A stretch of DNA of 20,474 nt from a virus: positions 1-20,474 of IMG/VR virus record IMGVR_UViG_3300034642_000070. One strand, given 5' to 3'. A model generated the notes under the pieces. That model was given only the letters and a program-made list of their open reading frames with translations, did no database searches and had not been told where the DNA came from. Below, one piece after another: positions 44-20,474 of this stretch. The position numbers and the translations under genes are program-made. Every line of letters starts with the position of its first letter. Position 1 is the stretch's first letter.

Positions 44-1063
44 ATGTTAGAGAGCGTTGCAGTTGAAAAAGAAAGTGGTGTAATTTCTTTAAGAGATTAT
101 ATCGCTGAGCAAGCTCCAGAGAAACCCTATCGTTTTGTTGTAATATATAATGACCCTAGCAATGTTGGTGATGACTCAAAAGAGGAAACTGACCCACTTG
201 CTGATAAGATGTTATCTTATGGTAAAGAACTAGGGTTAACTGGATTTAAAGCAAAGATAGAAGAAACATATATCATTAAAAAAGATGGTAAATTGTTTAT
301 ACACAATAAAGAAGATGATGAGTTTGAAATAGACGAAAATACTATTGTCTTTAATAGGTCTAAATCAAATGATTTTCCAAGTTGGCAAAACTTCTATCGT
401 GAACTTACTATCAATGGGGTTAGAGTTATTAACCCTATGACAGTACATAATATATGTTGGGATAAGTATCATACTTATTTAAGATTAGAACAAGATTATA
501 TTAAACAACCATCTACAGTTCTTGTTAATGATTTAGATAAATTAGAAGATATACATAAAAGAGTTGGTGGTAAGTTTCCAGTTGTTTTGAAAACAATCTT
601 AGGAACTGGTGGGGTTGGTGTTCTTAAAATTAAAGACGAAGCTCAACTATTATCGTCTGCACAAATTATTAATAAGTTGGGTTCTGAAAGAGGTCTTATA
701 CTCCAAGAATATATTCAGATAGATTTTGATGTTCGTGTTATGATGGTCGCTGGTGAAATCATGGGTGCAATGAAAAGACCACTTGCAGATGGTGATTTTA
801 GAAGTAATGTACATCAAGGTTCTAAACCAGAAAAATTTCAATTAACAGAATTAGAAAAAGAAATTTGTTACAAGGTAGACCGTTCAATTGGTGGTAAATG
901 GATTGGTGTAGACTTAATTGTTTCTGAGGATAGAGAAAAAGTTCCACCATATGTTTTAGAGATAAATTCACAGCCTGGTCATGTTGGATATGATTCAGTT
1001 CATAGTGGAAGTATACTCAAAGATGTTTTAGTAAAATTTATGAATCGTGATAATTGGACTTGA
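44..1063 (+). CDS. RimK/GshB-like ATP-grasp ligase
   Basis: This is an ATP-grasp carboxylate-amine ligase. Such enzymes use ATP to make an acyl phosphate and then an amide or peptide bond; RimK adds glutamate to a protein C-terminus and GshB makes glutathione. Visible motifs are the ATP-binding lysine in FPVVLK (K183) followed by a Gly-rich loop GTGGVG (186-191), LILQEYI before a conserved DVRVMMV strand, DFRSNVHQG (251-259), and the metal-binding set D290 and E306/N308 (VLEINSQPG). Length, 339 aa, suits a RimK-type enzyme with an N-terminal pre-ATP-grasp domain. The ATG follows AAGGAC at 31-36. The gene sits directly before DNA polymerase with a 31-nt gap, so it is probably co-expressed early with replication genes. 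The substrate cannot be read from the sequence; a host protein, ribosomal or replication, is only a guess. Confidence 0.85.
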   Translation: MLESVAVEKESGVISLRDYIAEQAPEKPYRFVVIYNDPSNVGDDSKEETDPLADKMLSYGKELGLTGFKAKIEETYIIKKDGKLFIHNKEDDEFEIDENTIVFNRSKSNDFPSWQNFYRELTINGVRVINPMTVHNICWDKYHTYLRLEQDYIKQPSTVLVNDLDKLEDIHKRVGGKFPVVLKTILGTGGVGVLKIKDEAQLLSSAQIINKLGSERGLILQEYIQIDFDVRVMMVAGEIMGAMKRPLADGDFRSNVHQGSKPEKFQLTELEKEICYKVDRSIGGKWIGVDLIVSEDREKVPPYVLEINSQPGHVGYDSVHSGSILKDVLVKFMNRDNWT

Positions 1064-4936: not shown

Positions 4937-5777
4937 AAAACATATTAAAGATAATGTAAAAGATGATGTAGTTGCAGTGTTAATGTCTGGTGGAGTTGAT
5001 AGTCTATCAGTTGCGTTTGCAGCTCATGATGTGGGTAAAAAAGTAGTTGGATATACTTTCTGCTTAGGGGGTGATGAATCTTATGATTACCTAAAAGCAA
5101 AAGAAGTATGTGCTGACATGGGTTGGGAATGTAATTTATTTAATGTTCCCACAACAAACCTAGTAGATGATTGGCATAAACTTGTAAAATTAGGTTGTAG
5201 AAAAAAAACACACTTTGAGTGTGTTTTTCCATTCTTATATGTCTACCCAGACATTTATCAAAAGTATGTATTAACTGGCTGGGGTGCAGACGGATATTTT
5301 GGGCCATCTAAAAAAGCTATGATGCGATACTCCAGTTTCAAGAAGAAAAGAAATTATGTTGCATATTGTAAACGAGTAAATCAAAAAAGACTAAACTGGA
5401 ATGAGTTTAGAATTGAATACTTAGACGGTGATTGTGCTGGTTATAAAGAACACACTAGTCTTGCAAAACAATATAATAAAATTCATATTGCACCATACAA
5501 AGATAGTAAAAAGATTAGAGAATTACTTATGTCTAAAAGTTGGGTTGAACTCAACAAACCAAGACAAAAAGAAATTATAAGAAAAGACTTTACAAACCTA
5601 AAAAAGTATGGTACTATAAAACCTCATATAAATTTACATTTAGGTGCAAATATCAATAAGTTGTTTGAAACATTATTAGAAGATGTTGATATTAACTTCA
5701 ACGATAGAAAACGTATGATGGATGTTTGTAGAGATTGGTATGAAAAGAAAAACACTATTGAGGAGTTTATGAATTGA
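4917..5777 (+). CDS. Asparagine-synthetase-like PP-loop ATPase without glutaminase domain
   Basis: This is an N-type (PP-loop) ATP pyrophosphatase that should adenylate a carboxylate and pass it to an amine. The PP-loop is S24-G-G-V-D-S29 after a hydrophobic strand (VVAVLM). Asparagine-synthetase features follow: TGWGADGYFGP (120-130), matching the family S-G-E-G-[AS]-D-E-L-F-G-G loop; IHIAPYKD (189-196), like the V-x-x-P-F-L-D segment; and KPRQKEIIRKDF (214-225), like the K-x-x-L-R helix. At 286 aa it is only the synthetase half: the N-terminal glutamine amidotransferase domain of AsnB is absent, so ammonia or another amine would be the nucleophile. It overlaps the upstream gene by 20 nt and the downstream methyltransferase by 4 nt (TTGA). 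That coupling suggests it acts on a product of the methyltransferase/CmoA-like pair, a carboxylated base. QueC-like or tRNA-modifying PP-loop enzymes are alternatives, less favoured because of the AsnB-type segments. Confidence 0.8.
   Translation: MIKKLLKKHIKDNVKDDVVAVLMSGGVDSLSVAFAAHDVGKKVVGYTFCLGGDESYDYLKAKEVCADMGWECNLFNVPTTNLVDDWHKLVKLGCRKKTHFECVFPFLYVYPDIYQKYVLTGWGADGYFGPSKKAMMRYSSFKKKRNYVAYCKRVNQKRLNWNEFRIEYLDGDCAGYKEHTSLAKQYNKIHIAPYKDSKKIRELLMSKSWVELNKPRQKEIIRKDFTNLKKYGTIKPHINLHLGANINKLFETLLEDVDINFNDRKRMMDVCRDWYEKKNTIEEFMN
5204..5228 (+). other. Perfect stem-loop inside the AsnB-like gene, terminator-like
   Basis: An 11-bp perfect inverted repeat, AAAAACACACT then loop TTG then AGTGTGTTTTT, lies wholly inside coding sequence, encoding part of RKKTHFECVF. 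It is preceded by further A residues and ends in five T, so it resembles an intrinsic terminator in either direction, though the stem is AT-rich. It could attenuate transcription into the methyltransferase genes, act as an RNA-processing site, or be chance. No promoter or gene end is nearby. Confidence 0.4.
5760..5765 (+). promoter_or_regulatory. Ribosome binding site for the TTG-started methyltransferase
   Basis: GAGGAG lies 8 nt before the TTG at 5774. It is one of the strongest Shine-Dalgarno matches in the window and decides the start: no in-frame ATG occurs before methyltransferase motif I, and the TTG overlaps the upstream stop as TTGA. Confidence 0.7.
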
Positions 5778-6922
5778 AATATAAACCTTATTTACTAAAA
5801 GATGTATATGATGCATCTTCCCAAAAGAAGTTTGATGTAATATCAACCTTTGCTGGTGGTGGTGGAAGTTCCACTGGATATAAACTTGCTGGTGGTAATG
5901 TACTTGCAGTAAATGAGTTTGTAGAAGAAGCAAGAACTACCTATAATCAAAATTACCCAGAGACTCCAATATTACCAGATGACATTAAAAAGTTATCTGG
6001 TCATGAGTTTTTAGATATCACTGGAATAAAGTCTGGTGAATTAGATGTTTTAGATGGTAGTCCACCATGTTCTGCATTTAGTATGGCTGGTAATGTAAGT
6101 CATGGTAAAGGTAATTCACATAAAGATGCATTTGGTAAAACTAAAGGTTACAGTGATATTAAAGAAGTAACAAACGTAGAAGATTTATTCTTTGAGTTTC
6201 TTAGAGTTGCAGATGTTATCAAACCAAAAGTTATCATAGCAGAGAATGTCGCTGGTCTTACTATGGGTGAGGCCAAACAATATTTTAATAAGATACAAAA
6301 TACATTTGAAGATATTGGATATGATGTTTGTGCAAAGGTTTTAAACAGTGGATACTTTGGTGTACCACAAACTCGTAATCGTGTTTTCTTTATAGGTCTT
6401 AGAAATGATATTACTACAAAAGTTGGTTTGACTTTTATGAATATTCATAGTATATTTCCTAGTGAAAGTAAGTCTATGGTTAGACTTGGTGATGCTTTAG
6501 ATAATTTAGAATACGATAATGAAGAGGTACAAACACTGACAGAGAAGTTTTCTAAAACTGCATATTGGAAAGACACTGGTAGTAAGATGCCAGATAATCC
6601 AGATAAAGTTTTAACTGGTGCTGATTATCATCACAAAGGTCATCACTTTAATCTAAAAAGAGTATCACTTAATGCACCAGCTCCTACTCTTACTGCAATG
6701 GGTAGTAATGATACAACTGCTGGTGCATTTCATTGGAATGAACCTAGAAAACTTACAATAGGTGAATTGAAAAGAATACAATCTTTACCAGATGATTTTG
6801 TTCTCACTGGTAAATGGAATCAAAGGTCTGAACGTATTGGTAGAATGGTGCCACCATTACTATTAAAAGCGATTGCAGACTCAGTATATGATAATGTTAT
6901 TAAGGAATATAAGAATGGCTGA
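5774..6922 (+). CDS. DNA cytosine-C5 methyltransferase with Arg in motif X (candidate carboxymethyltransferase)
   Basis: This is a C5-cytosine DNA methyltransferase of 382 aa. Motif I is STFAGGGGSSTGYKLAGG (24-41). Motif IV holds the catalytic cysteine (D94-G-S-P-P-C99). Motif VI is E157-N-V, and motif VIII is Q199-T-R-N-R203. A target-recognition region with a His-rich YHHKGHHF (285-292) follows. Motif IX is RKLTIGELKRIQSLPDDF (325-342), and motif X is G356-R357-M-V-P-P361. All catalytic residues are intact. The unusual point is motif X: canonical enzymes have G-N-[SA]-V-P-P, and here the Asn, which lies by the SAM methionine moiety, is Arg. I recall that a basic residue at this position lets an engineered M.MpeI use carboxy-SAM and write 5-carboxymethylcytosine. 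The neighbouring CmoA-like gene, which overlaps by 8 nt, could supply that cofactor. The start is TTG with a strong GAGGAG site. Plain 5-methylcytosine formation remains the null hypothesis; the recognition sequence is unknown. Confidence 0.93.
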   Translation: MKYKPYLLKDVYDASSQKKFDVISTFAGGGGSSTGYKLAGGNVLAVNEFVEEARTTYNQNYPETPILPDDIKKLSGHEFLDITGIKSGELDVLDGSPPCSAFSMAGNVSHGKGNSHKDAFGKTKGYSDIKEVTNVEDLFFEFLRVADVIKPKVIIAENVAGLTMGEAKQYFNKIQNTFEDIGYDVCAKVLNSGYFGVPQTRNRVFFIGLRNDITTKVGLTFMNIHSIFPSESKSMVRLGDALDNLEYDNEEVQTLTEKFSKTAYWKDTGSKMPDNPDKVLTGADYHHKGHHFNLKRVSLNAPAPTLTAMGSNDTTAGAFHWNEPRKLTIGELKRIQSLPDDFVLTGKWNQRSERIGRMVPPLLLKAIADSVYDNVIKEYKNG

Positions 6923-7607
6923 TTTTACTTTTGCACATAGAGAAGAAGGATTTGATGAACACATAGAAAAATCTATTCGTGGTTATTCTCAACTCATGGA
7001 TGATGTTATATCATTGTCTCGACACTTTGTAGAGAAAGGAACAAGTGTAGTTGATATCGGTTGTTCTACTGGAAAGATGACCAAGGCCTTAATAGATTAT
7101 AATCTAGACCATATTGAAACTGGTGTAGAATTTATAGGTATTGAAATTGCAGATGGGTTTCAAAAGGATTTAAGGAAAAGAGAAGAAGAAATTAAGAAGT
7201 ATTATTCTAATGTTCACTTTGAACAAAGTGATGCACGTTACTATGAATATAAAGAATGTTCTCTAATTACTTCAATTTTTACCTTGCAATTTATGCCTAA
7301 ATGTGATAGAAAGGAAACACTACAATCTGTATATGATGGTTTGAACTCTGGTGGTGCATATATATTTGCAGAGAAAACAATTTGCGAAAATGCACTTGTA
7401 CAAGATATGATTACTTTTAATTACTATGATTACAAAAGAAAATCATTTACCACCGAAGATATTATGGATAAGGAACGTACTCTTAGACATATGATGAAAC
7501 CTAATACATGGAGAGAAATCGAAGATATGTTGATGGAAGTAGGTTTTGGTGTTGTACAACCTTTCTGGAGAAATCACGCATTTGTTGGTGCGTTGGCTGT
7601 AAAATAG
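6915..7607 (+). CDS. CmoA-like SAM enzyme (carboxy-SAM synthase family)
   Basis: This is a class I SAM-binding enzyme of 230 aa that looks specifically like CmoA, which converts SAM plus prephenate to carboxy-SAM for tRNA wobble-uridine modification. Compared with E. coli CmoA as I remember it, I see KSIRGYS (19-25) for RSVPGYS, motif I DIGCSTG (47-53) for DLGCSLG, IFTLQFM (121-127) for NFTLQFL, GLNSGGAYIFAEK (142-154) for GLNPGGALVLSEK, and FNYYDYKR (168-175) for FNMHHDFKR. No CmoB partner, tRNA-directed or otherwise, is in the window; a cytosine-C5 DNA methyltransferase precedes it instead. One caution: in an ungapped alignment the E. coli carboxylate-binding Arg (R199 by my count) falls on Glu187, with Arg188 one residue later. 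I chose ATG 6915, preceded by AAGGA (6902-6906), over an in-frame ATG at 6873 that would overlap the upstream gene by 50 nt. Confidence 0.82.
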   Translation: MADFTFAHREEGFDEHIEKSIRGYSQLMDDVISLSRHFVEKGTSVVDIGCSTGKMTKALIDYNLDHIETGVEFIGIEIADGFQKDLRKREEEIKKYYSNVHFEQSDARYYEYKECSLITSIFTLQFMPKCDRKETLQSVYDGLNSGGAYIFAEKTICENALVQDMITFNYYDYKRKSFTTEDIMDKERTLRHMMKPNTWREIEDMLMEVGFGVVQPFWRNHAFVGALAVK

Positions 7608-7616
7608 GAGAATAAT

Positions 7617-8021
7617 ATGGATGTTGATTTATTAAAAGATTATCAAGAATTTGTTGATGAAGTATCTAGTGATGCAACTAAAAATATTGATGATTTTGGT
7701 GATGCAGTAGATGTCATAGATGAAAATGGTGTTGAACCAACAAGGTTACTCACTGCATCTATCGGTCTATCTGGTGAAGTTGGTGAATTTAATGATATTG
7801 TAAAGAAGTGTTTCTTTCAAGGTAAAGAAATGGATGAGGATGTTGTCACTCATCTAAAATCAGAACTTGGTGATATTATGTGGTACATTGCACAAGGTTG
7901 TATTGCATTGGGAACTGATATTGAAGAACTGATTGATATTAATACTGCGAAACTTAAAGATAGATATCCAGAGGGATTTGATGGGTTTCGTTCTGACAAC
8001 AGAGATGAGGATGATATATAA
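7617..8021 (+). CDS. mazG: MazG-type nucleotide pyrophosphohydrolase
   Basis: This is an all-alpha NTP pyrophosphohydrolase of the MazG/dUTPase-like superfamily, 134 aa. The metal-binding set is visible: SGEVGE with E54 and E57, then SELGD with E83 and D86, followed by a helix and the [10 protein letters not shown] segment (112-121) typical of this family near the C-terminus. Members hydrolyse (d)NTPs or ppGpp-like nucleotides to monophosphates. In marine phages they have been proposed to tune nucleotide pools or stringent-response signals during infection. TAGGAG (7605-7610) gives a good ribosome site. The stop overlaps the uvsX start (TAATG), placing it in the replication transcript. The acidic C-terminal tail (DNRDEDDI) has no known role. 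Confidence 0.9.
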
Positions 8022-10704: not shown

Positions 10705-10897
10705 AAAAACCTATAAAGTACAATATTATCATGATGTCAACATCGACACTAAAAAGTGGGAAGTTATAGAACTTCCTACTAATAATGTTATCAAAACATT
10801 TGACTTTGAAGAAGATGCAGAAGAGGTCAGTAATTCTCTAAATAAGAATAAACCATTCGGTGACAGAGGCTTTCCAAGATTCCTAATACATAAATAG
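10676..10897 (+). CDS. Small hypothetical protein
   Basis: A 73-aa protein that I do not recognise. It is basic at the N-terminus, carries an acidic helix (FDFEEDAEEVSNSLN, about 42-56), and ends in a Pro/Phe/Gly-rich tail (PFGDRGFPRFLIHK). It overlaps the helicase gene by 29 nt. The ATG at 10676 is chosen because earlier in-frame starts extend still further into the helicase. Its last codons, CAT AAA TAG, form part of the CATAAATA late-promoter octamer, so the gene end and the promoter for the next operon coincide. Confidence 0.55.
   Translation: MKNSVTSRFRKTYKVQYYHDVNIDTKKWEVIELPTNNVIKTFDFEEDAEEVSNSLNKNKPFGDRGFPRFLIHK
10889..10896 (+). promoter_or_regulatory. T4-type late promoter (CATAAATA)
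   Basis: CATAAATA matches the T4 late promoter -10 octamer TATAAATA at 7 of 8 positions. It lies 29 nt before the ATG of the first gene of the putative virion operon, leaving room for a transcription start about 11-12 nt downstream and the GGAG ribosome site at 10912-10915. The same ten bases, ACATAAATAG, recur at 19452-19461 before the structural gene. Confidence 0.65.
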
Positions 10898-10925: not shown

Positions 10926-12272
10926 ATGGAGAGATTTAAAAAATATCTGAGGGAACTAACTGTTTCTCCAGATTATCAGAGTAGAGGAACATTTAATCCA
11001 TTTTATGTTCTTGATATACCAGAAGATGATATTAGACCATCAGTTGGTGATGGCACAATAAAATACAAGAATGTTGATTCTGGTTCTGGAGAACTAATCA
11101 AGAATTATGGTGGTAAATATCATTTTCAAGTAAATGTAAATGATGAAGATACTAACTACTATGTTATCACTACAAAATCAAAAGTAAAAGCTCACTTTGG
11201 TCAAAAGACTAGAAAAGACTCAACTGCATCATCAAATGTAAATGAGTTCTTAACAGTATATTTTTTACTTCACAAAGATTACACAGACCCTAAAACTTTT
11301 CAATCAGACATTGGTGGAAAGACAGGTAAAACTGGTGTTCTAAATGGTGAAGGTCAAGATGTTACATATGAAGATTTAGTTCAGTTAATAGATAGAGATG
11401 AAACTGCTGATAGAGATATTGAAATCGGATATCAAAATTCACTCGCAGTTGCAAAAGATTTACCAAACACTATTGATAAAGTTTTCTGGGTGCCGAGAGG
11501 TAAACCAGATGGAGTTGGTGGAAAGAATCCATCTGATGTTATCATTAAATTATCTGATGGTAATTATATTGGATATTCTAATAAGATTGCAGCTGGTAAA
11601 GACGCAACCCCAAAGATTAATACAAACATGACTGCGTTCTATTCTAAACTCGCAGACAGAAAACAATTATCTAATATAGAAAAAATGATTGATGATGCAT
11701 GGAATGATGCAGCTACAACAATTGATGTTACAACTCCAACTGCACATAAAGCAATAACTGCATTTAGTATTGCTGGTGAACGGTTTAGTGAAAGTTCTTC
11801 AAAGAGAGCATTTGCTGGACTTGCTCGTGCATTTCAAAAAGATAAATTAAAATTCTATGCAGATGATTTCTATTATAAGTTTAGAAACAACTTAATAACT
11901 GCATTTTCTACTTACATATCAGATTCTAGAAATATGGCGTATCTTTTGAATACAGTTGGTTATTATACATATGATGACCCAGATGCAACACCATGTCCAT
12001 ATAAACTTTTAATTGGTAGTGAAAAAGGTTCTACAATTAAAGATGTTTCTTCAGATGAGGAACAAAGACAAATATTCTTTACTAAGAAATCGACTGATTT
12101 AACACAGATTAGAACCAGTTACGATAAAAAAGGTCAAACCTTTAATCTTGCATTTGGATATAGACCTTTAGGTAAAATTATATCTGCACCAATTGTTTTA
12201 AGAACAAGAGCTGCCGGTGGTTGGTCTGGTAAAAGTTTATACATTACAACAAGTGGGTTTAAAGTAAAATGA
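10926..12272 (+). CDS. Unknown virion-operon protein, possible degenerate nuclease fold
   Basis: A 448-aa protein whose family I do not know. The N-terminus MERFKKYLRELTVSP is a short amphipathic basic helix followed by an L-R-E site, like T4 capsid-targeting peptides. In the middle, NPSDVIIKLSDGNYIGYSNK (201-220) has the shape of a PD-(D/E)xK nuclease core (D204 on one strand, S218-N-K220 where (D/E)-x-K is expected). The acidic residue of the second half is missing, so activity is doubtful. TPKINTNMTAFYSKL and a C-terminal RAAGGWSGKSLYITTSGFKVK region follow. It is the first gene after a late promoter and its stop overlaps the next start by 4 nt (ATGA), tying it to the ligase-like protein. 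A packaged DNA-binding or DNA-processing protein is my best inference. Confidence 0.6.
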   Translation: MERFKKYLRELTVSPDYQSRGTFNPFYVLDIPEDDIRPSVGDGTIKYKNVDSGSGELIKNYGGKYHFQVNVNDEDTNYYVITTKSKVKAHFGQKTRKDSTASSNVNEFLTVYFLLHKDYTDPKTFQSDIGGKTGKTGVLNGEGQDVTYEDLVQLIDRDETADRDIEIGYQNSLAVAKDLPNTIDKVFWVPRGKPDGVGGKNPSDVIIKLSDGNYIGYSNKIAAGKDATPKINTNMTAFYSKLADRKQLSNIEKMIDDAWNDAATTIDVTTPTAHKAITAFSIAGERFSESSSKRAFAGLARAFQKDKLKFYADDFYYKFRNNLITAFSTYISDSRNMAYLLNTVGYYTYDDPDATPCPYKLLIGSEKGSTIKDVSSDEEQRQIFFTKKSTDLTQIRTSYDKKGQTFNLAFGYRPLGKIISAPIVLRTRAAGGWSGKSLYITTSGFKVK

Positions 12273-13498
12273 TTAATTTACTAGAAGGAAAAGAAGGTAA
12301 AAACCTACACTTAGAACACATCGAAGATGAGATATTAAACTTTGGTGTGCCAGGGGGTAGAGCTGCGATTAATTTTATTCGTTCTCTGAGGGATATGCTT
12401 GCTGGTGAATCTAGGTCTTCAGTCAACATGACAGTCAAGTGGGATGGAGCTCCAGCAATATTTGCTGGAACTGACCCAAGTGATGGTAAATTTTTTGTTG
12501 CAAAGAAATCAGTATTTAATGTAAGTCCTAAACTATACAAAACAAACGCAGAGATTGATGCAGATTTATCTGGAGACTTAAATGCAAAATTCAAAGTTGC
12601 ACTCGCAGAGTTCTCAAAACTTGGAATCAAAGGAGTCCTCCAAGGTGACCTCATGTACACAGACCTATCGAAAGAAAATATTGATGGGATATCGTATTAC
12701 ACTTTCCAGCCTAATACTATTGTTTACGCTGTGCCTATTGATAGCGATTTGGGTAAAATTATGAACGCATCTAAGATTGGAGTTGTATGGCACACAACTT
12801 ACAAAGGTTCTACATTACAAGATATGAAAGCATCATTCGGTGCAAATATTTCTGGACTTACAAAAACAAAAACAGTATGGATGGATGATGCAACTTACAA
12901 AGATGTATCTGGTCGTGCAACTATGACTGCAAAAGAAACTGCTGAGGTTACTGCACACTTATCAAATGCTGGTAAAACATTCCAAAGAATTAACGCACCA
13001 TCACTCAAGAAATTTCTAAGACTACAGGATTCTCTCACAGGAAAACTAGTAGGTGCAAGTTATAAGACATATAATAATACTAAGGTTCGTGCTGGTCAAG
13101 CTGTTAAAGACCCTAAAGGTCATGCAAATGGTTATGTTATTCATGTTGAAAACCATTTCCAAAAAGAGATTGAAAAACTTAAAACCCAGAAATCTAAGGA
13201 TGTTCTGGAAACAAAGAAGACTGAATACGTTAGAGAATTTAAAAAGATGTTACCTAATCTGCAACAAGTGACTGCATTTCAAATGCACCTTGTAAATGCA
13301 AAGATGGGGATTGTAAAAAAACTAAATAGTGTAAAAGGTTTAACAGATACCTTTATCAAAACTAGTAATGGATTTAAAGTGGTTAACCCAGAGGGTTATG
13401 TTGCAATTGATAGGGTGTCTGGTGACGCTGTGAAGTTAGTTGATAGAATGGAATTTAGTTTTAATAACTTTACTGCAATAAAGGCATGGGATAAATGA
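12269..13498 (+). CDS. Polynucleotide-ligase-like nucleotidyltransferase
   Basis: This 409-aa protein carries the motif set of the covalent nucleotidyltransferase superfamily (DNA/RNA ligases and capping enzymes). Motif I is K57-W-D-G60, where the Lys would take AMP. A basic strand FVAKKS (76-81) follows, then motif III-like LQGDLMY (124-130), IIIa-like NTIVYAVP (149-156), motif IV P374-E-G-Y-V-A-I380, and motif V V388-K-L-V-D-R. The E-G-Y-V-A form is close to T4 RNA ligase 1. An insertion of about 200 residues between IIIa and IV, mostly Lys-rich and helical, is unusual for a minimal ligase. The family identity is my motif reading; substrate (RNA or DNA nicks) is unknown. Its N-terminus MINLLEG has an L-L-E|G site, and it sits between virion-type genes with 4-nt overlaps on both sides, so it may be packaged. 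Confidence 0.72.
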   Translation: MINLLEGKEGKNLHLEHIEDEILNFGVPGGRAAINFIRSLRDMLAGESRSSVNMTVKWDGAPAIFAGTDPSDGKFFVAKKSVFNVSPKLYKTNAEIDADLSGDLNAKFKVALAEFSKLGIKGVLQGDLMYTDLSKENIDGISYYTFQPNTIVYAVPIDSDLGKIMNASKIGVVWHTTYKGSTLQDMKASFGANISGLTKTKTVWMDDATYKDVSGRATMTAKETAEVTAHLSNAGKTFQRINAPSLKKFLRLQDSLTGKLVGASYKTYNNTKVRAGQAVKDPKGHANGYVIHVENHFQKEIEKLKTQKSKDVLETKKTEYVREFKKMLPNLQQVTAFQMHLVNAKMGIVKKLNSVKGLTDTFIKTSNGFKVVNPEGYVAIDRVSGDAVKLVDRMEFSFNNFTAIKAWDK

Positions 13499-13893
13499 AA
13501 ACTTTAAAAGAAATATTACTAGGAGAAGCTGCTCCTGCACCCCAAAAATCTCCAATGCAAAGAAGGAGAGAGATGGGTAGAAGGATGAAACTTCTCGCAA
13601 AAAAATCTTCCACAAAACTAAAGAAGAAAAGAGCACTTCTTAGAAAAAGAGATGCTGCTTCCCTTATGAAATCTGCACAAAAACAAGCAAAGATGACTGT
13701 AATTAAAAAACAGTTGGGCCCAGAAATAAACTACAATGAACTTCCTATCCAGAAAAGAATTCAGATTGACCAGAAGATTACTGCTAAGAAAGCAAAAGTA
13801 ATTCAAAAGATGACTAAGAAAATTTTAAGAAAGTTAAAAGCTGGAGAAGGTGAGAGAGTTAAGAAAGCAAAACTCGCTCAGCAGGAGAGTTAG
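13495..13893 (+). CDS. Very basic small protein, candidate internal virion protein
   Basis: A 132-aa protein with 29 Lys and 11 Arg against 10 acidic residues, about +30 net charge, and almost no aromatic residues. It is predicted mostly helical. The N-terminus MKTLKEILLGEAAPAP matches the form of the T4 IPIII targeting peptide (MKTYQEFIAE), with a cleavage-type L-G-E|A site followed by a flexible Ala/Pro stretch. T4 internal proteins are likewise small, basic, protease-processed and injected with the DNA. The start overlaps the ligase-like stop (ATGA) and its TAG directly abuts the next ATG. I infer a DNA-condensing or host-takeover protein packaged in the head; no enzymatic motif is visible. 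Confidence 0.75.
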   Translation: MKTLKEILLGEAAPAPQKSPMQRRREMGRRMKLLAKKSSTKLKKKRALLRKRDAASLMKSAQKQAKMTVIKKQLGPEINYNELPIQKRIQIDQKITAKKAKVIQKMTKKILRKLKAGEGERVKKAKLAQQES

Positions 13894-16407
13894 ATGAAAA
13901 CATTTTTAGAGGCAAGAGGTGATACAGCTATATTTACATTTGGTAGATTTAATCCACCTACAACTGGACATGAAAAACTTATAGATGCACTTGGAAAACA
14001 ACAATCAAAGAACGCTGGTTCTTTGATGTATGTATATCCATCTCACTCCCAAGACGCAAAAAAGAATCCACTCCCTCATGCAAGAAAAGTTGCATACATG
14101 AAAAAGATGTTTCGTAAGTATGCAAAAAATATTATCACCAGTAAAGCAAGAAACGTATTCGATATTGCAGTAGAATTACACAATAAAGGACATAGAGCAA
14201 TCGTAATGGTTGTTGGTTCTGATAGAGTACAAGAGTTTGATAGACTATTAAATCAATACAATGGTGTTGAGGGTAGACATGGTTATTACGGTTTCGATGA
14301 TATTAGAGTTGTATCTGCTGGAGAACGTGACCCAGATGCAGAAGGTGTTGAAGGAATGTCAGCATCTAAGATGAGAGCTGCAGCTGCACAGGGTGATTAT
14401 GATTCTTTTATAATGGGATTACCTAGAAACTTTGGTGATGCAAAGAAACTCTATGATGATGTTCGTAAGAACATGGGTGTAAGAGAACAAAATTGGACAG
14501 ACGAAGAGATTATGAGAGATGCATATATTCGTGGTGAGGTCTGGAATGTTGGTGATGTTGTCAAAACAAAACTAGGTGAAGAAGGAAAGATTATTCGTAA
14601 GGGTACAAACTATGTTGTATTTGAAGATATGCAAAGAGTTTGGTTACATGACCTAGTTGAAGAACCAAAAAAGATTACAAAGACAAAACAAGCAAAAGGT
14701 GAGGTTGGGGATATGAAAGGTACTCAACCAGCAAAGTATTATTCTAAAGACGCAGACGGTGATGAAATGTCAGTTGCAACTAAGAAGGCTCGTGCAAGAC
14801 ATTTTGCAAAAGGTGATTCAAGAAAACCAGCTCCTGGCGATAAAGGTGCAGATACAAAACCATCTCAGTACACTAAAAAGTTCAAACAGATGTATGGTGA
14901 ACAAGATAAGAAAAAAGAACCAGCAAAGTCTGACCAAGAAAAAGAAAGAGATGAATTTAAGAAACTGCAAAAAGATAAGAAAGTTGCAGCTTTACAATAT
15001 CGTATGGCGAAAGATGCAGAGACAGTTGCAAGACTATCTGCGACTGAACGTAAACTTACTGATGCAGAGAAGGATAAGTTAAAGAAACTTGAAAAAGAAG
15101 TTCCGAAGAAGGACTTTATGGATAGGTATGGAAAAGATGGTGAATCAGTTTACTACGCAACACTTACTAAAATGGCAAAAGGTGAGAGTATAGAGGAAAA
15201 AGATAATCCATGTTGGGATACTCATAAACAAGTTGGTATGAAAAAGAAGAATGGTAAGATGGTGCCAAATTGTGTTCCTAAAGAAGAAATAGAAGAAATT
15301 AATGTTCCAGCGATTGTGAAAAGTGTTATCTCTAGAATGACACATCCAAAAGGTTATGCAAAGATGTTGCAAGATTATATACAGAGAGTAAAAGACGATA
15401 TTAAAAAGAAACACTCTAATAGATTTCATGCCGCTCAAGTTGCAACCATGTATGGATTAAATTCAGTATTCCCACTTATTGACTATATTAACAAATTAGT
15501 TAAGAAAGGTCAGTTACCTACAACTCTAATGGCACAGTATGACCAGAATGAATCATATGAGATTGGTAAAGAATATGCAGACCACACAAAAGAGGTTGAC
15601 CCATATTCTGCACCAAAGAGTGAAAAGATATATCTTAGAAGAGATAAAAAATTACCAAATCTAAAACTTCCAGTAAGCAGAAAAAAAGGTAGAATTATTA
15701 AACCCAAGAAAGAAGACTTTCAATTAGATGAAAAAATTGCTGGACTAGTTAAGAAGTCAGAACAAACTGGTGTACCATATGGTATTCTTAAAAAGAGTTA
15801 TGACAGAGGAATGGCTGCTTGGAAAACAGGACATCGCCCTGGCGCATCTCAACAACAGTGGGCATTTGCAAGAGTTAACTCAATGTTAACTGGTGGAAAG
15901 GCTGACCCAGACCTACAAGCACAAATTAAAAAAGGTGGTTATAAAAAGAAAAAGAAGGCATCTAAAGAATCTGTTGATGAATGGTTTAATTCTGATGAGA
16001 CTATCCAACTATATCAAGAAAGATATGGTTCAGAGTGGGAAGAAAAACTAAATAATACATACGAAAGAATGTTATCAAAACTAAACGAATCTTGTTGTGA
16101 AGATTGTGAAAATCATTTTGACCATGTTATTATGGAAGCAGAATATCAAGGTAAAAAGGTTAAATTGAATGACCCTATTCGTACAAGTGAAAACCCAAAC
16201 AAAAAGTTTAAGGTTTATGTAAAAAACGAAAAAGGAAAAGTAGTAGTCGTTAGATTTGGTGACCCAAATATGGGTATTAATCGTGATGACCCAGAAAGAA
16301 GAAAAGCATTTCGTGCAAGACACAATTGTGATGACCCTGGCCCTAAAACTAAGGCAAGATATTGGAGTTGTTTTCAATGGCGTGCTGGTGCAAAGGTAGA
16401 TAACTAA
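13894..16407 (+). CDS. Modular virion protein with N-terminal NMNAT-like nucleotidyltransferase
   Basis: An 837-aa Lys-rich multidomain protein. Residues 1-190 are a cytidylyltransferase/NMNAT-like domain: F16-G-R-F-N-P-P-T-T-G-H26 (the H-x-G-H-type loop), a GSDR strand (108-111) and SASKMR (156-161) in the place of the I-S-S-T-x-x-R motif. A KOW-like SH3 segment (217-257) follows, then a long low-complexity charged helical region (260-430), and a Cys pair module (C440 and C460 around KQVGMKKKNGKMVPN). Next comes a module at 614-668 with GMAAWKTGHRPGASQQQW, recurrent in large phages in my recollection, and a C-terminal module (749-837) with FRARHNCDDPGPKTKARYW. Protease-type sites I433-E-E435, I466-E-E468, L611-D-E613 and I746-M-E748|A lie between modules. 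The N-terminus MKTFLEARG resembles a capsid-targeting peptide. It may be a polyprotein delivering an NAD-related enzyme. Confidence 0.75.
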   Translation: MKTFLEARGDTAIFTFGRFNPPTTGHEKLIDALGKQQSKNAGSLMYVYPSHSQDAKKNPLPHARKVAYMKKMFRKYAKNIITSKARNVFDIAVELHNKGHRAIVMVVGSDRVQEFDRLLNQYNGVEGRHGYYGFDDIRVVSAGERDPDAEGVEGMSASKMRAAAAQGDYDSFIMGLPRNFGDAKKLYDDVRKNMGVREQNWTDEEIMRDAYIRGEVWNVGDVVKTKLGEEGKIIRKGTNYVVFEDMQRVWLHDLVEEPKKITKTKQAKGEVGDMKGTQPAKYYSKDADGDEMSVATKKARARHFAKGDSRKPAPGDKGADTKPSQYTKKFKQMYGEQDKKKEPAKSDQEKERDEFKKLQKDKKVAALQYRMAKDAETVARLSATERKLTDAEKDKLKKLEKEVPKKDFMDRYGKDGESVYYATLTKMAKGESIEEKDNPCWDTHKQVGMKKKNGKMVPNCVPKEEIEEINVPAIVKSVISRMTHPKGYAKMLQDYIQRVKDDIKKKHSNRFHAAQVATMYGLNSVFPLIDYINKLVKKGQLPTTLMAQYDQNESYEIGKEYADHTKEVDPYSAPKSEKIYLRRDKKLPNLKLPVSRKKGRIIKPKKEDFQLDEKIAGLVKKSEQTGVPYGILKKSYDRGMAAWKTGHRPGASQQQWAFARVNSMLTGGKADPDLQAQIKKGGYKKKKKASKESVDEWFNSDETIQLYQERYGSEWEEKLNNTYERMLSKLNESCCEDCENHFDHVIMEAEYQGKKVKLNDPIRTSENPNKKFKVYVKNEKGKVVVVRFGDPNMGINRDDPERRKAFRARHNCDDPGPKTKARYWSCFQWRAGAKVDN

Positions 16408-16419
16408 AGGAAAAAAAAT

Positions 16420-18918
16420 ATGACTAGATATGCAAAAACAATGAGTCAGGCTCTCGCAGAAATGCAAGAAGCAAAAAAGATAACTAAAAAAGAACGTGAT
16501 AAATTAGAGAATGATAATCAGCATGGTGAACTTGCATTGAAACTCGCACAATCTTTTGGAACTCCACAAGAGGTGAAGAAAATAAAAGATATCAATAAGA
16601 GACATATGCAACAAGGTTCTATTGACCCTAAAGACCAAAAAGAAAGAGATAAGATTTCTAACAAGTATTATAAGATGGCAGAAAGTCTAGAAGAGGGTTA
16701 CGAAAGTGAAGTTCTCAAAATTCTTGATGATGCTGGTATTGATGGATATTTTAAAAATAATAAACTCTACGTTAGTAAGAGGGATGCAAGAGATGCTAAG
16801 AAAGCACTTGATGACTCAGATGAGATTACAAAACTACCCAAGATGGTAAAAGAAGGTACTTGGAAGTATGCAGAAACACCAAAAGAAATTGCAGCTTTAA
16901 AGAAACTTATGTCAAGACCATTACCAATTGGTAATGATGAAGATGAAAAAACATATAAAGACTCTGCATCATCAAAACTTTATGGTCTACTAGGTGATGA
17001 TGAATTATTTGACGCACTAGGAGTATTACAAGATAAAGGTAATCCAAAAGCAGATGCAAGAAAAACAATTATCAAGTGGTTTCATAAAAGAGTAAAAGAT
17101 GACTCTTATGGTCTTGGTGATGAGACTAAAGCACTTGGAAAAGCTATTGGTCTAAAGATGGACTATGTTCCAGAGGGTTTCTCACCAAAAGAAATTAAGA
17201 TGGCAATCGGTATTGCATCTGACCCAAGGTATAAACAAGGAAACTATTCTGGTGCAGTAAAACAGATTGAGAAAATCAAAAAAGGTTTATCAACCCACAA
17301 ACAAGTTGCAGCTGTTCTGAAAAGACAGAATGAAAGTAGTAGAATAGAAAACTTTGATGAAAATTACAGAAAACTTGCAATGATGGGTATTGGTACTGAA
17401 ACAAAGAAAGCTGCAAAAGTTGGTTTGAAAACTGATTATTACCTACCTAAAAACGGAGATAAGAGTTTTGGTAAAATTACAAGAGTTACTTCAAGTGGGT
17501 ATGAAATAACAGATGAGAAAACTAAAAAGGTTCACAAGTTTAAATTCTATGACCCAAATAATGACCCAACTAGTGTCAGAGGAACAAGAGAAGAAGTTGA
17601 ACTTGATGAAAAAGTTAAAGAGTATAAAGGTGTTGCATATTTTAAAACTCGTAAAGATGCAGAAGCACATATGAAAAAATTTGCACCAAAAGGAAGAGTT
17701 GTTGAATATGAAAGAGGTTATGCTGTTCAAACTAGAATTTCCGGCCCATACCTTAATAAAGCTGGAAAAACTGAGGAAGTTGAACTTGATGAAGGCAAAA
17801 TGAAACAATTTCACATGATGATGGATGATGGTAAATCTGCTGAAGAAATTGCAAAGGCACTTAAACTTGACTTAAAAACTGTCAAAGAACTTATGAAAGA
17901 ATCTTTAGATGAAGGAATGAAATATACTCATGCAGTAGTTGACCCAGATGGTAAAGTTGCTGGAATGGCATCAAATGAAAAAGATGCAAAAGATATTGCA
18001 AGTAGACACAAGGGTAAAGTCGTAAAACTAAAGAAACCTATGTCAGACAAAAAAGGTGACATGATGATTAATCGTCCATTTAAGGAAGAAGTTGAACTTG
18101 ATGAGAAGTATGATTTATATCATAAGACTTTTTCTGATGCAATGCAACACGCATATGATTATGCAAAAAAGAAATTGGGTATTACAGTAGACCCAAAAGA
18201 GATTGACAATAAAGTCGCAACTGGCCCGAAGAAACCATCTGAGGGTAAAACAAACAAATACAGACTCAAAGGTAAAGGTGGAAACCTACAAATCCAAGTT
18301 TACAATAAGGGTGGTTCAAAACCATTTGAGTTGAATATGTACAAAGAGGAGAATGAAATGTACGATAAATTAACTGATGGTAACCTATCCTTAAAAGAAA
18401 CCGTCCTACAAATGTGGCAAGAAGCTGCAAAAGGTAAAGATGAAGGAAATGCATTTGGTGCCGCTCTTGCAGCTGCAAAAGAAAAAGGTGAAGATACCTT
18501 TGTAGTTGCTGGTAAAACTTATGATGTCAAGACTGAACAAGAAGTTAAAGAGTTTGTTCAAGCAGATGGAACTAAGAGAAGAGTTAAGGAAGGTGACAAT
18601 CGTCTAAAATCTAATAGAAATGAAAAACTTGTCGGCGGTCAAAAGAAACTTGACAAAGATAAAGATGGTGACATTGATGGAAAAGACTTTGCAATGTTAC
18701 GAAAACAAAAGAAAAATAATGAAGAACACCAGAGATATCTTGAAACCAAAAGAGGTTCTTTAAGAGATTCAATCTTACAAATGTGGGGTGAAAAAAAGGA
18801 CTTGACAAAAGAGATGGAAAATGGTAAGAATAAGAAGACGGATACTGGAAAAGAAATGACTCCAGTAGATATGTCACCAAAAATGCCAAAAGTAAAAGAA
18901 AGTAAAAATAAGGTGTAA
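16420..18918 (+). CDS. Modular Lys-rich virion protein with repeated E-V-E-L-D-E linkers and an EF-hand-like loop
   Basis: An 832-aa highly charged protein made of small modules. The N-terminus MTRYAKTMSQALAEMQEAKK is a targeting-type helix with L-A-E and M-Q-E|A. L-E-E92|G follows at the end of the first helical module. Sites E-V-E-L-D-E397|K, E-V-E-L-D-E458|G, S-L-D-E498|G and E-V-E-L-D-E562|K separate: an alpha/beta piece (398-453), a helix-turn-helix-like piece with DGKSAEEIAKALKLDLKTVKEL, a THAVVDPDGKVAGMAS piece (501-550), and a module starting KYDLYHKTFSDAMQHAY (563-640). Near the C-terminus are two SL[KR][ED][TS][VI]LQMW copies (656-669, 779-791), a GNAFGAALAAAKEKG module, and D745-K-D-K-D-G-D-I-D-G-K-D756, an EF-hand/dockerin-type calcium loop. 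I infer a virion polyprotein cut by the prohead protease; no enzyme activity is recognised. AAAGGAA precedes the ATG. Confidence 0.75.
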   Translation: MTRYAKTMSQALAEMQEAKKITKKERDKLENDNQHGELALKLAQSFGTPQEVKKIKDINKRHMQQGSIDPKDQKERDKISNKYYKMAESLEEGYESEVLKILDDAGIDGYFKNNKLYVSKRDARDAKKALDDSDEITKLPKMVKEGTWKYAETPKEIAALKKLMSRPLPIGNDEDEKTYKDSASSKLYGLLGDDELFDALGVLQDKGNPKADARKTIIKWFHKRVKDDSYGLGDETKALGKAIGLKMDYVPEGFSPKEIKMAIGIASDPRYKQGNYSGAVKQIEKIKKGLSTHKQVAAVLKRQNESSRIENFDENYRKLAMMGIGTETKKAAKVGLKTDYYLPKNGDKSFGKITRVTSSGYEITDEKTKKVHKFKFYDPNNDPTSVRGTREEVELDEKVKEYKGVAYFKTRKDAEAHMKKFAPKGRVVEYERGYAVQTRISGPYLNKAGKTEEVELDEGKMKQFHMMMDDGKSAEEIAKALKLDLKTVKELMKESLDEGMKYTHAVVDPDGKVAGMASNEKDAKDIASRHKGKVVKLKKPMSDKKGDMMINRPFKEEVELDEKYDLYHKTFSDAMQHAYDYAKKKLGITVDPKEIDNKVATGPKKPSEGKTNKYRLKGKGGNLQIQVYNKGGSKPFELNMYKEENEMYDKLTDGNLSLKETVLQMWQEAAKGKDEGNAFGAALAAAKEKGEDTFVVAGKTYDVKTEQEVKEFVQADGTKRRVKEGDNRLKSNRNEKLVGGQKKLDKDKDGDIDGKDFAMLRKQKKNNEEHQRYLETKRGSLRDSILQMWGEKKDLTKEMENGKNKKTDTGKEMTPVDMSPKMPKVKESKNKV
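17590..18108 (+). repeat. Three dispersed copies of an E-E-V-E-L-D-E linker repeat
   Basis: Copies lie at 17590-17613, 17773-17796 and 18085-18108 and share the identical 17-mer GAAGTTGAACTTGATGA. A shorter relative (E-S-L-D-E-G) is at 17899-17916. All are in the same frame and encode an acidic linker ending in L-D-E followed by K or G, spaced 35-64 codons apart between compact modules. The near-identity at DNA level suggests recent duplication or recombination between linkers. Confidence 0.85.
18385..18792 (+). repeat. Two copies of an L-Q-M-W helix motif
   Basis: Residues 656-669 (LSLKETVLQMWQEA) and 779-791 (GSLRDSILQMWGE) of the 832-aa protein are clear copies, 123 residues apart, both ending in W-x-E before a charged segment. 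They flank the GNAFGAAL module and the calcium-loop module, so they may mark another kind of module boundary or a shared docking helix. Confidence 0.6.
18910..18915 (+). promoter_or_regulatory. Ribosome binding site for the GTG-started HAD gene
   Basis: AAGGTG lies 5 nt before GTG 18921 and inside the end of the upstream gene. The ATG at 18919 is in another frame and meets TGA at once, and the next in-frame ATG would remove HAD motif I, so GTG is the supported start. Confidence 0.6.
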
Positions 18919-18920
18919 AT

Positions 18921-19451
18921 GTGAAAAAATTATATGATGTTATTAACGAAGTCACAGAAAAGGGTGATGATTTACCAACAATTTACTGTGACATGGATAT
19001 GGTGCTTTGTGACTTTTTAAAAGGTTCAGAAGAAGTACTAGGTGTTCCGTTTCCTAAAGCAGATAAAAGGACTAAGTGGCCAATGATATCTGCTAAGAAA
19101 GATTTCTGGGAAAGTTTAGAATGGATGCCTGGCGCTAAAAGAATGTGGTCATTTATTAATAAATATGATGCACACATTCTATCTGCATATTCTACCAAGG
19201 ATGCAAACTCTAGAAAGGGTAAGTATAAGTGGTTGAGTGTTAACGCAAAGTTAACAAAGAAAAGTAGAATACATTTAGTTATGCGTGAGGATAAACAAAA
19301 ATACGCAATGACAAATGATGGCAAACCTAACTTATTGATTGATGATTATATCAAAAATATTAATGAGTGGAAAGCGAAAGGTGGGATAGGAGTACATCAT
19401 ACCTCACCAATGGGTACAATCGCAGAATTAAAACGGTTGGGTTTTAAATAA
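18921..19451 (+). CDS. HAD-superfamily phosphatase / 5'-nucleotidase-like
   Basis: A 176-aa HAD-fold hydrolase resembling the 5'(3')-deoxyribonucleotidase group. Motif I is IYCDMDMVLCDF (21-32), with the nucleophile D24 and D26. Motif II is the Ser in HILSAYS (S88). A Lys near 125-127 may serve as motif III, and motif IV is L-L-I-D141-D142-Y. The substrate could be a nucleoside monophosphate or a phosphorylated nucleic-acid end; sequence alone does not decide. The N-terminus MKKLYDVINEVTEKGDDLP adds a targeting-type helix with an I-N-E|V site before the catalytic core, as in the five genes before it. It starts with GTG 2 nt after the previous stop and is the last gene before a new late promoter. 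Confidence 0.85.
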   Translation: MKKLYDVINEVTEKGDDLPTIYCDMDMVLCDFLKGSEEVLGVPFPKADKRTKWPMISAKKDFWESLEWMPGAKRMWSFINKYDAHILSAYSTKDANSRKGKYKWLSVNAKLTKKSRIHLVMREDKQKYAMTNDGKPNLLIDDYIKNINEWKAKGGIGVHHTSPMGTIAELKRLGFK

Positions 19452-19452
19452 A

Positions 19453-19460
19453 CATAAATA
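19453..19460 (+). promoter_or_regulatory. T4-type late promoter (CATAAATA)
   Basis: CATAAATA sits one base after the stop of the HAD gene and 36 nt before the ATG of the structural gene. It matches TATAAATA at 7 of 8 positions and shares the ten bases ACATAAATAG with the promoter at 10889-10896. The 45-nt gap is the longest in the window. AGGGAG at 19483-19488 is the downstream ribosome site. Confidence 0.7.
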
Positions 19461-19496
19461 GAAGTAGTAAAATTTCTATTATAGGGAGAAAATAAA

Positions 19497-20474
19497 ATGT
19501 CTTTATGGGGTAAAAATGATGGCAAAACTGCGAATGGAACTATCGCAATTGCTTCCAATGGAACTGTAACTGGTTCTGGAACTGCATTTACCGATGCCAT
19601 GGTTGGTAATTATATTCGGGCTGGTGGAGAAGATTATCTCATCACTGCAAGAGCATCCAACACTTCTGCTACGGTAATTGCTGGTGTGCCTGGCGCAACA
19701 CTTTCTGTTGTTAGTAGTGGTACATCGTACACACTTTCAGAAAAGTGTAAATTCGTAACAACTTCAGAAGCGACATCAACTAATGGTATTCATGGTGACC
19801 CAACAAAAGTTTTTGGTGTGGACACAGACGAAATTGGTGCTGGTGGTGATAATGTCGTATCTGTTACTATCGTAGATGGTGGGTCAGGCTATAAAGGTTC
19901 TGCACCTTCTGTATCATTCTCTGGTGGTGGGGGCTCTTCTGCAGCTGCAACTGCTGGAACTGGTGGATATCCTAGTATTACATCTGTTGCAGTAACAAAT
20001 GTCGGTTCTGGTTATACTTCTACACCAGACGTTGCAATCGCACCTCCAGCTGCTCAAACATTTAACGGTGGTTCTTCTGTTACAAATAACACTGATGCAA
20101 TTACAATTTCTGCTCATCCATTTCTAACTGGTGACCAAGTTACCTATGCAGATGGTGGTGGTTCTAATACTACAATCACTGGTCTTACAGATGGTGGAAC
20201 TTTCTTTGTAATTAAAACAGCTGCAAATGCACTTAAACTTGCAACTACAAAAGCCAATGCATTGGCTGGTACTGCAATTGACATTACTTCTGGTACTGGT
20301 ACTGGTCATAGTTTAACTGGTGAAACTGCAACTGCAACTGCATCACTTGGTGCTTCAAGTTCAGGCTTTCATGCTGGTTGGGTAAGACGTACAGTTGGAA
20401 CTGGTGGTCGTGCTGGTAGAATTCAATATGAAACTCTTGTAGCATCATCATCTATTGCTGGTGACCAAGAAGAT
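19497..20474 (+). CDS. Glycine/threonine-rich virion structural protein (partial, runs off the window)
   Basis: The frame is open from ATG 19497 to the last base (326 codons, no stop). The start MSLWGKNDGKTANGTIAI and the segment GWVRRTVGTGGRAGRIQYE (295-313) are forms I associate with a structural protein common in marine T4-like phages. The composition is rich in Gly, Ser, Thr and Ala with few Lys, unlike the preceding virion proteins. Two tandem copies of an x-V-x-x-G-S-G-Y-x-x-x-P repeat are visible (about 121-141 and 162-181). A further beta module (ISAHPFLTGDQVTYADGGG, 204-222, to LKLATT) resembles units seen in tail fibres and adhesins. Strand-rich repeats suggest a tail or surface fibre component. 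It has its own late promoter and AGGGAG ribosome site. No targeting peptide is seen at its N-terminus. Confidence 0.85.
   Translation, partial: MSLWGKNDGKTANGTIAIASNGTVTGSGTAFTDAMVGNYIRAGGEDYLITARASNTSATVIAGVPGATLSVVSSGTSYTLSEKCKFVTTSEATSTNGIHGDPTKVFGVDTDEIGAGGDNVVSVTIVDGGSGYKGSAPSVSFSGGGGSSAAATAGTGGYPSITSVAVTNVGSGYTSTPDVAIAPPAAQTFNGGSSVTNNTDAITISAHPFLTGDQVTYADGGGSNTTITGLTDGGTFFVIKTAANALKLATTKANALAGTAIDITSGTGTGHSLTGETATATASLGASSSGFHAGWVRRTVGTGGRAGRIQYETLVASSSIAGDQED

Follow-up and report, generated by a model that had tools for sequence, protein, structure and literature searches.

T4 internal-protein-like leaders on a gene cluster of a T4-type phage fragment suggest head-packaged cargo

The internal proteins IPI, IPII and IPIII and the protein Alt of bacteriophage T4 carry a short N-terminal peptide with hydrophobic residues at positions 4, 7 and 8, Glu at position 10 and an (L/I)xE cut site. 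Cleavage by the T4 protease gp21 takes place after (L/I)xE. Targeting by the IPIII leader depends on residues 4 and 7, and its processing on residues 8 and 10; an Asp in position 10 leaves targeting intact and blocks processing (PMC9026906). IPI-III each block a different GmrSD restriction enzyme. In cyanophages, an NMNAT/cytidylyltransferase and kinases have been reported from virions (S-SM1, S-SCSM1, S-CBWM1 and S-CREM2); the accessible parts of these reports name no targeting or loading signal for them. In the present study we analysed a 20,474-base virus record (IMG/VR IMGVR_UViG_3300034642_000070; hereafter the window) with nothing else attached, a fragment of about 20.5 kb whose phage resembles T4-type phages of the Kyanoviridae. 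Six consecutive genes of the window and an ATP-grasp gene at position 44 encode proteins with leaders of this kind. These proteins are very probably head-packaged cargo of a T4-type phage, tagged, cut by gp21 and probably injected.

The six open reading frames (ORFs) and their N-termini were recovered as placed by the initial annotation, which had overlooked a seventh carrier, ORF0, outside its span, as well as the internal sites described below. The carriers are as follows, with a slash marking the putative cut.

44..1063, + strand: ORF0, RimK-type ATP-grasp protein; 22-residue leader MLESVAVEKESGVISLRDYIAE/ at 44-109, then QAPEKP
10926..12272, + strand: ORF1, phrog_2496, function unassigned; leader MERFKKYLRE/ at 10926-10955, then L
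12269..13498, + strand: ORF2, DUF6267; leader MINLLE/ at 12269-12286, then G
13495..13893, + strand: ORF3, small basic protein rich in Lys and Arg; leader MKTLKEILLGE/ at 13495-13527, then A
13894..16407, + strand: ORF4, several modules behind an NMNAT/cytidylyltransferase domain; leader MKTFLE/ at 13894-13911, then A
16420..18918, + strand: ORF5, module array without known domain; leader MTRYAKTMSQALAEMQE/ at 16420-16470, then A
18921..19451, + strand: ORF6, HAD-family 5'-nucleotidase-like protein, GTG start; leader MKKLYDVINE/ at 18921-18950, then V

The six N-termini of ORF1-ORF6 had been taken for one shared peptide, and this view holds under a loose test that asks for a hydrophobic residue at position 4 and for (L/I/M/F)xE whose Glu lies at positions 6-18. 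All six passed, against 6.5% of 397 non-cluster proteins of Methylophilales phage Melnitz and Pelagibacter phage HTVC008M, the nearest relatives of the window. With shuffled N-termini a mean of 0.42 of six passed, and five or more never did so in 20,000 trials. The test is imperfectly specific, because two non-cluster proteins of the window, UvsX at 8021 and a small ORF at 10628, pass it too. A strict pattern with the T4 IPIII spacing (hydrophobic 4, 7 and 8; Glu 10), which recovers T4 ipII and ipIII, is matched in the window by ORF1 and ORF6 only; leaders of the strict type, with F4, L/F7, L8 and E10, share the IPIII spacing. Hydrophobic residues at both 4 and 7 are found in ORF1 and ORF6 and in most relatives of ORF2-ORF4. 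Within the leader of ORF5, the candidates LAE and MQE are less secure as gp21 sites. The ORF0 homologue of Melnitz starts MTQKFSQFITE/EPKEQK, and a leader-positive ATP-grasp protein of locus L085 starts MENFRSFITE/E. An alternative GTG start of ORF0 giving MISLRDYIAE was rejected, the codon being GTA. As a separate observation, gp61.1 of T4 (gene 61.1, L144:18966-19130) starts MKTFKEFIKE/D, a strict IPIII match, and may be an unrecognised T4 internal protein.

The leaders were compared among relatives, with two IMG/VR scans giving 136 loci (L numbers). Leader length and sequence vary before one and the same domain, and most leaders end in (L/I)xE, with the site abutting the domain. In the ORF2 family, leaders such as MISFAELLSE/, MIKFSSFLTE/, MRTFLELLSE/ and MKTFLELQE/ directly precede DKGGKNLHLEH. 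Among 73 distinct leaders of this family, residue 4 is hydrophobic in 92% (31% when shuffled) and (L/I/M)xE is present in 86% (18% when shuffled). In a search that also permitted Met, Phe and Val at P3, this residue was Leu (57) or Ile (6) in all 63 site-bearing peptides. The site is carried by 27 of the 29 distinct ORF3-family leaders (93%; (L/I/M)xE) and by 84% of those of the ORF6 family. The ORF1 family keeps YLRE/LTVS, YLHE/LTVS (L014) and NLRE/LTIS (L085) although the preceding residues are unrelated. Where another protein is fused upstream of DUF6267 (L041, L052 and L085), a tag-like internal segment, LSFESFLAE/ or similar, is retained. The six-residue leaders recur in the nearest relatives, as MLTLME, MISLME and MVMLFE for ORF2 and as MKTFKE for ORF4; distant relatives of both have full 9-10-mer leaders. 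Over the IMG/VR loci, the tag was found in 106 of the 324 distinct genes belonging to the six families (2.1 expected) and in 31 of 822 other genes (3.3 expected), the expectations coming from shuffles that ignore the kinship of sequences. These patterns support, at the level of sequence, the view that the leader would be a module independent of the downstream domain.

The HTVC008M-like phages depart from this picture. The ORF2-family leaders of L111, L117, L124, L131, L133 and L141 end in TRE, TKE, TSD or TQD (for example MFSFKGFITRE, MFSFKGFITSD and MFNFKGFLTQD), possibly representing targeting without processing, and the HAD homologues start at the domain with the leader absent. The leader system in these phages is eroded or different.

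Orthologues of such proteins are known from the virions of S-SM1, S-SCSM1 and S-CREM2 through the work of others. For S-CREM2, 52 proteins were found in purified virions (PMC10665884). Six of its 219 annotated proteins match the strict pattern (0.29 expected from shuffles), and five of the six were detected in virions by mass spectrometry (Fisher p=0.003): the S-adenosylmethionine (SAM) hydrolase (MKDFDSFLEE), gp13 (MKDLHSFLTE), the APH-like kinase (MKRFDAFLTE), gp136 (MQTFSMFFSE) and the cytidylyltransferase (MKNFSSFLTE). The sixth, gp175, was not among the detected proteins. With a looser pattern allowing offsets the association with virions disappears (p=0.13); therefore only the strict IPIII spacing was applied to S-CREM2. 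For S-SCSM1, the counterpart cluster comprises five genes (gp89-gp93), each with a virion-protein annotation (PMC9602691), and the NMNAT starts MKSFLQFLKE/A. The NMNAT of S-SM1, found in virions (PMC3037559), starts MKKFSAFLNE/A, and the gene order around the ORF4 orthologue is common to S-SM1 and S-SCSM1. Among seven further cyanophage NMNATs examined, four have a perfect 10-mer and those of S-BM3 and S-PRM1 a variant. The annotated form of the S-PM2 orthologue, which was among those undetected earlier (PMC3037559), is without leader, and the annotated start of the Bellamy NMNAT gives no 10-mer leader. The proposed tag would account for the presence of NMNAT and other such enzymes in cyanophage virions. 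A literature search for "capsid targeting" with "cyanophage" returned a T4 review only.

Two further virion proteins have tag-like segments away from the extreme N-terminus. Virion-detected gp12 of S-CREM2 (L145:7704-10313) has LRFASFMAE/A at residues 17-25; its Cas9/Csn1 annotation is doubtful, since Pfam gave no domain. The small virion-annotated gp93 of S-SCSM1 (L154:7627-7836) has a C-terminal RTFKEFLEYIE, recalling the C-terminal processing of T4 Alt.

The protease needed for cutting was recognised as Peptidase_S77 in both nearest relatives (Melnitz, 1.5e-31; HTVC008M, 5.7e-33), where the major capsid proteins and gp21 itself have matching sites in their N-terminal parts (FLSE/AAPT, YITE/A and LIAE/A). 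The cluster gene order is repeated in Melnitz (12203-19789) and HTVC008M (103767-111718), flanked by a primase-helicase on one side and an S-layer-domain gene on the other; in the window, the first half holds replication genes and the ORFs at 10926, 12269, 13495, 13894, 16420 and 18921 come after them. A tblastn search of named phages matched ORF5 in Melnitz only. The capsid-targeting interpretation in the initial annotation is thus supported by the IPIII spacing, the gp21 of relatives and the orthologues in virions.

On the T4 model, the leader of these late-made proteins, mainly through hydrophobic residues 4 and 7, would bind the prohead core during assembly. Then gp21, seen in the relatives together with the sites, would cut after (L/I)xE, freeing the domain and destroying the tag. 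The cargo would remain in the head and probably enter the host with the DNA, as do T4 Alt and IPI-III, to act before phage gene expression; injection is proposed by analogy with T4, the one system on which we draw for it.

ORF4 and ORF5 look like polyproteins, to judge from the placement of further (L/I)xE motifs, which are few in both and lie chiefly between modules. The putative internal gp21 sites are listed below.

15295..15297, + strand: IEE/, ORF4 Glu468, before module J; 12/15 homologues
15730..15732, + strand: EDFQLDE/, ORF4 Glu613, before DUF5824; 48/67 homologues
16135..16137, + strand: VIME/, ORF4 Glu748, before the phrog_7595 module; 43/54 homologues
16693..16695, + strand: SLEE/, ORF5 Glu92; single module example
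17608..17610, + strand: EEVELDE/, ORF5 Glu397; single module example
17791..17793, + strand: EEVELDE/, ORF5 Glu458, before module G; 14/16 homologues
17911..17913, + strand: ESLDE/, ORF5 Glu498, before module H; 3/5 homologues
18103..18105, + strand: EEVELDE/, ORF5 Glu562, before module C; 11/14 homologues

The Pfam match to DUF5824 in ORF4 starts at residue 614, directly after Glu613. For modules A, B, C, D, G and J, which are well sampled, (L/I)xE stands at the same boundary in 62-88% of homologues, compared with 13-18% at random positions. In 162 distinct module instances (at most 75% identity), the Glu of (L/I)xE lies exactly at -1 in 31% and at -2..0 in 55%, against a background of 0.8% per position; since the module starts were set from the window's own sites, the window is not independent evidence here, and the other instances are, save for shared ancestry. 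Modules of ORF4 and ORF5 stand at N-termini in some phages and internally in others. They open a protein behind an N-terminal tag in L116 (MISFSQYLKE/GDYPLYHKT, module C), L119 (MKSFKTHLNE/KIEGLV), L101 (MKTFKELTEKTLNE/GRMKEL) and L089 (MRYGKSMSEALAEIRE/GFSKKEIKM). It is therefore reasonably likely that marine T4-type phages use gp21 as a cargo processor: one tag would draw a polyprotein such as ORF4 or ORF5 into the head, and gp21 would cut it at sites such as EEVELDE/ into several small packaged proteins.

It is worth noting that this part of the proposal has a rival of its own. The (L/I)DE segments of ORF4 and ORF5 could be flexible acidic interdomain linkers in proteins that are packaged whole. 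Interdomain linkers are often acidic, cleavage at these sites is what we infer, and the virion-annotated gp92 of S-SCSM1, which contains EEVELDE/ and matches the Melnitz cluster protein 18520 (1.7e-9), is reported as a single virion protein (PMC9602691). A linker, however, would hardly place the Glu so exactly at module starts and leave module positions 5-14 free of (L/I)xE, and the same modules elsewhere stand behind N-terminal tags that end in a site of this type. We regard the linker explanation as unlikely, if still deserving of attention, and prefer processing by gp21.

Several facts weigh against packaging and cutting as proposed. The leaders of ORF2 and ORF4 are only six residues long and keep residue 4 alone of the pair 4 and 7, and the P3 residue of MKTFLE in ORF4, already called weaker in the initial annotation, is an atypical Phe (FLE). 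Only 57% of ORF4-family leaders carry (L/I/M)xE, partly because of start-codon choice and of FxE and VxE variants. Several leaders are either missing from HTVC008M and its relatives or finish with Asp or TRE there. The same-boundary site of module K occurs in only 49%, and (L/I)xE is not clearly depleted inside mature domains (ratios: window 0.91, S-CREM2 cargo 0.90, elsewhere 1.15-1.24, Melnitz 1.32). The shuffle statistics ignore kinship, as stated above. gp21 was not found in the 20.5-kb window, which is uninformative since the window is a fragment. Authors of the virion surveys (PMC9602691 among them) consider that the enzymes may be carried by virions and also allow that some are contaminants. 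For the window proteins themselves we infer the cutting, the location within the head, the injection and the function of the cargo.

Another explanation is that the leaders serve to attach the proteins to the core and most are left uncut, the conserved Glu being part of a docking helix. The T4 leader with Asp at position 10, which still targets and blocks processing (PMC9026906), and the Asp-ending leaders MFSFKGFITSD and MFNFKGFLTQD of HTVC008M-like phages are in its favour. Docking alone, however, does not call for a P3 limited to Leu or Ile and a P1 limited to Glu with P2 free, as expected for a gp21 site, nor for a site that abuts the domain at leader lengths from 6 to at least 20 and recurs deep inside polyproteins. 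We consider docking without processing quite improbable.

It would also be conceivable that the helix sends the proteins elsewhere, to the membrane or a replication complex, since many carriers are nucleotide or NAD enzymes and the cluster follows replication genes. This is very hard to reconcile with carriers in virions, with a pattern shared with T4 internal proteins and with a late-promoter-like box before the cluster:

10889..10897, + strand: CATAAATAG, T4-type late-promoter-like box, 36 nucleotides (nt) upstream of ORF1

A TATAAATAG box precedes the first cluster gene of Melnitz by 46 nt and the cytidylyltransferase gene of S-CREM2 by 27 nt; the DNA polymerase, uvsX and dnaB of Melnitz have no such box upstream. 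The strict form TATAAATA does not occur in the window, the form conserved in the window, Melnitz and S-CREM2 being the relaxed NATAAATAG. The late promoter of the initial annotation is therefore plausible from its conserved position, while the motif itself is not over-represented in the window (5 against 9.7 expected). A second CATAAATAG box (window 19454-19497) precedes the next gene by 43 nt. That gene, MSLWGKNDGK..., runs off the end, and its positional counterparts in Melnitz and HTVC008M are S-layer-domain proteins with the same box type.

Finally, coincidence, by which AT-rich phage genes often begin with MK-hydrophobic-acidic stretches and short (L/I)xE matches are common, can draw on the two non-cluster window genes and on the undetected gp175 of S-CREM2, and was rejected as scarcely credible on the background rates (six of six against 6.5%; 106 of 324 against 2.1), the conservation and the association with virion detection.

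The cargo itself is diverse. ORF0 matches Pfam RimK (6.1e-32), ORF2 DUF6267 (5.4e-101) and ORF6 phrog_2643 (1.6e-26). The N-terminal domain of ORF4 belongs to the NMNAT/cytidylyltransferase-like class, with an HxGH-type motif (GRFNPPTTGH) and matches to CTP_transf_like (9.4e-05, above the curated cut-off), phrog_3041 (1.5e-76) and phrog_395; DUF5824 and phrog_7595 are among its further modules. In ORF2, the motifs KWDG, QGD (QGDL), EG.V (EGYV) and K389 are invariant in 35 sequences, and we take them to resemble motifs I, III, IV and V of covalent nucleotidyltransferases. The earlier description of ORF2 as ligase-like finds some support in these motifs and none in structure: its model gave no Foldseek match, and hhalign of the family against T4 Rnl2 gave none. 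The AlphaFold model of ORF2 (predicted local distance difference test, pLDDT, 80.4) is confident apart from the unstructured residues 1-13; that of ORF1 is poor (pLDDT 57.5). Neither model matched a solved fold, and the profiles had no meaningful match to PDB sequences. Other tagged proteins in relatives include another HAD protein, ATP-grasp proteins and Zeta-toxin-like P-loop kinases, the last starting MKTFAELQE/G in Melnitz (L002:15855-16523) and MIPFILKE/G in HTVC008M (L004:21563-22225). The likeliest activities of the cargo are NAD metabolism (NMNAT) and the chemistry of nucleotides or nucleic acids.

Elsewhere in the window, a block at 3569-7607 contains an asparagine-synthase/QueC-like protein (4917-5777) and, judged from the sequence by eye, two probable methyltransferases, a DNA cytosine methyltransferase (5774-6922) and a SAM methyltransferase (6912-7607). 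This block possibly serves DNA modification.

Compared with the T4 internal proteins, the window proteins likewise have unrelated mature parts behind a common tag, likely late expression, a basic member (ORF3) and a phage group with gp21 and gp22. Unlike the small basic inhibitors of T4, they are mostly large enzymatic or multi-module proteins encoded in one operon; their leaders range from 6 to 22 residues, their internal sites suggest polyproteins, and their cleavage and injection would follow the T4 example. ORF4 is an orthologue of the virion NMNAT/cytidylyltransferases of cyanophages, for which the reports leave the contaminant option. Polyvalent proteins (PMC5512222) and DarA and DdrB of P1 are also multi-domain, head-packaged and probably delivered to the host, and proteolytic release has been proposed for some of them. 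Theirs, however, are embedded peptidase domains (zincin-like and assemblin-like), whereas here the capsid protease gp21 would cut; no peptidase domain such as a zincin-like MPTase was found above the cut-off in ORF4 or ORF5, which on this ground fall outside that class. The polyvalent-protein paper does not mention cyanophages. Inner-body and ejection proteins of phiKZ and SPN3US are comparable as cargo processed by a prohead protease with cleavage after Glu (PMC9026906), but come from giant phages, whose protease is diverged and whose proteins are different.

The principle of T4 internal proteins is known; its proposed use in marine T4-type phages is new and extended, with processed polyproteins as a likely new twist. 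Several surveys of cyanophage particles list NMNAT, kinases and further enzymes and, in their accessible parts, do not say why these are there. With a packaging tag that can be read from sequence, these virion enzymes would be accounted for, true cargo could be told apart from contaminants, and cargo could be predicted from the genomes of an abundant group of ocean phages. Should the polyprotein proposal hold, the head protease would also produce the payload, a role for which the literature searched gave no precedent. A new effector module would then need no more than an (L/I)xE linker to enter the payload, and one module could shift over evolution between a tagged gene of its own and a segment of a polyprotein. 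The tag would thus offer a route to proteins for counter-defence or host takeover that act before phage gene expression, comparable to T4 IPI-III, in phages of SAR11, OM43 and picocyanobacteria.

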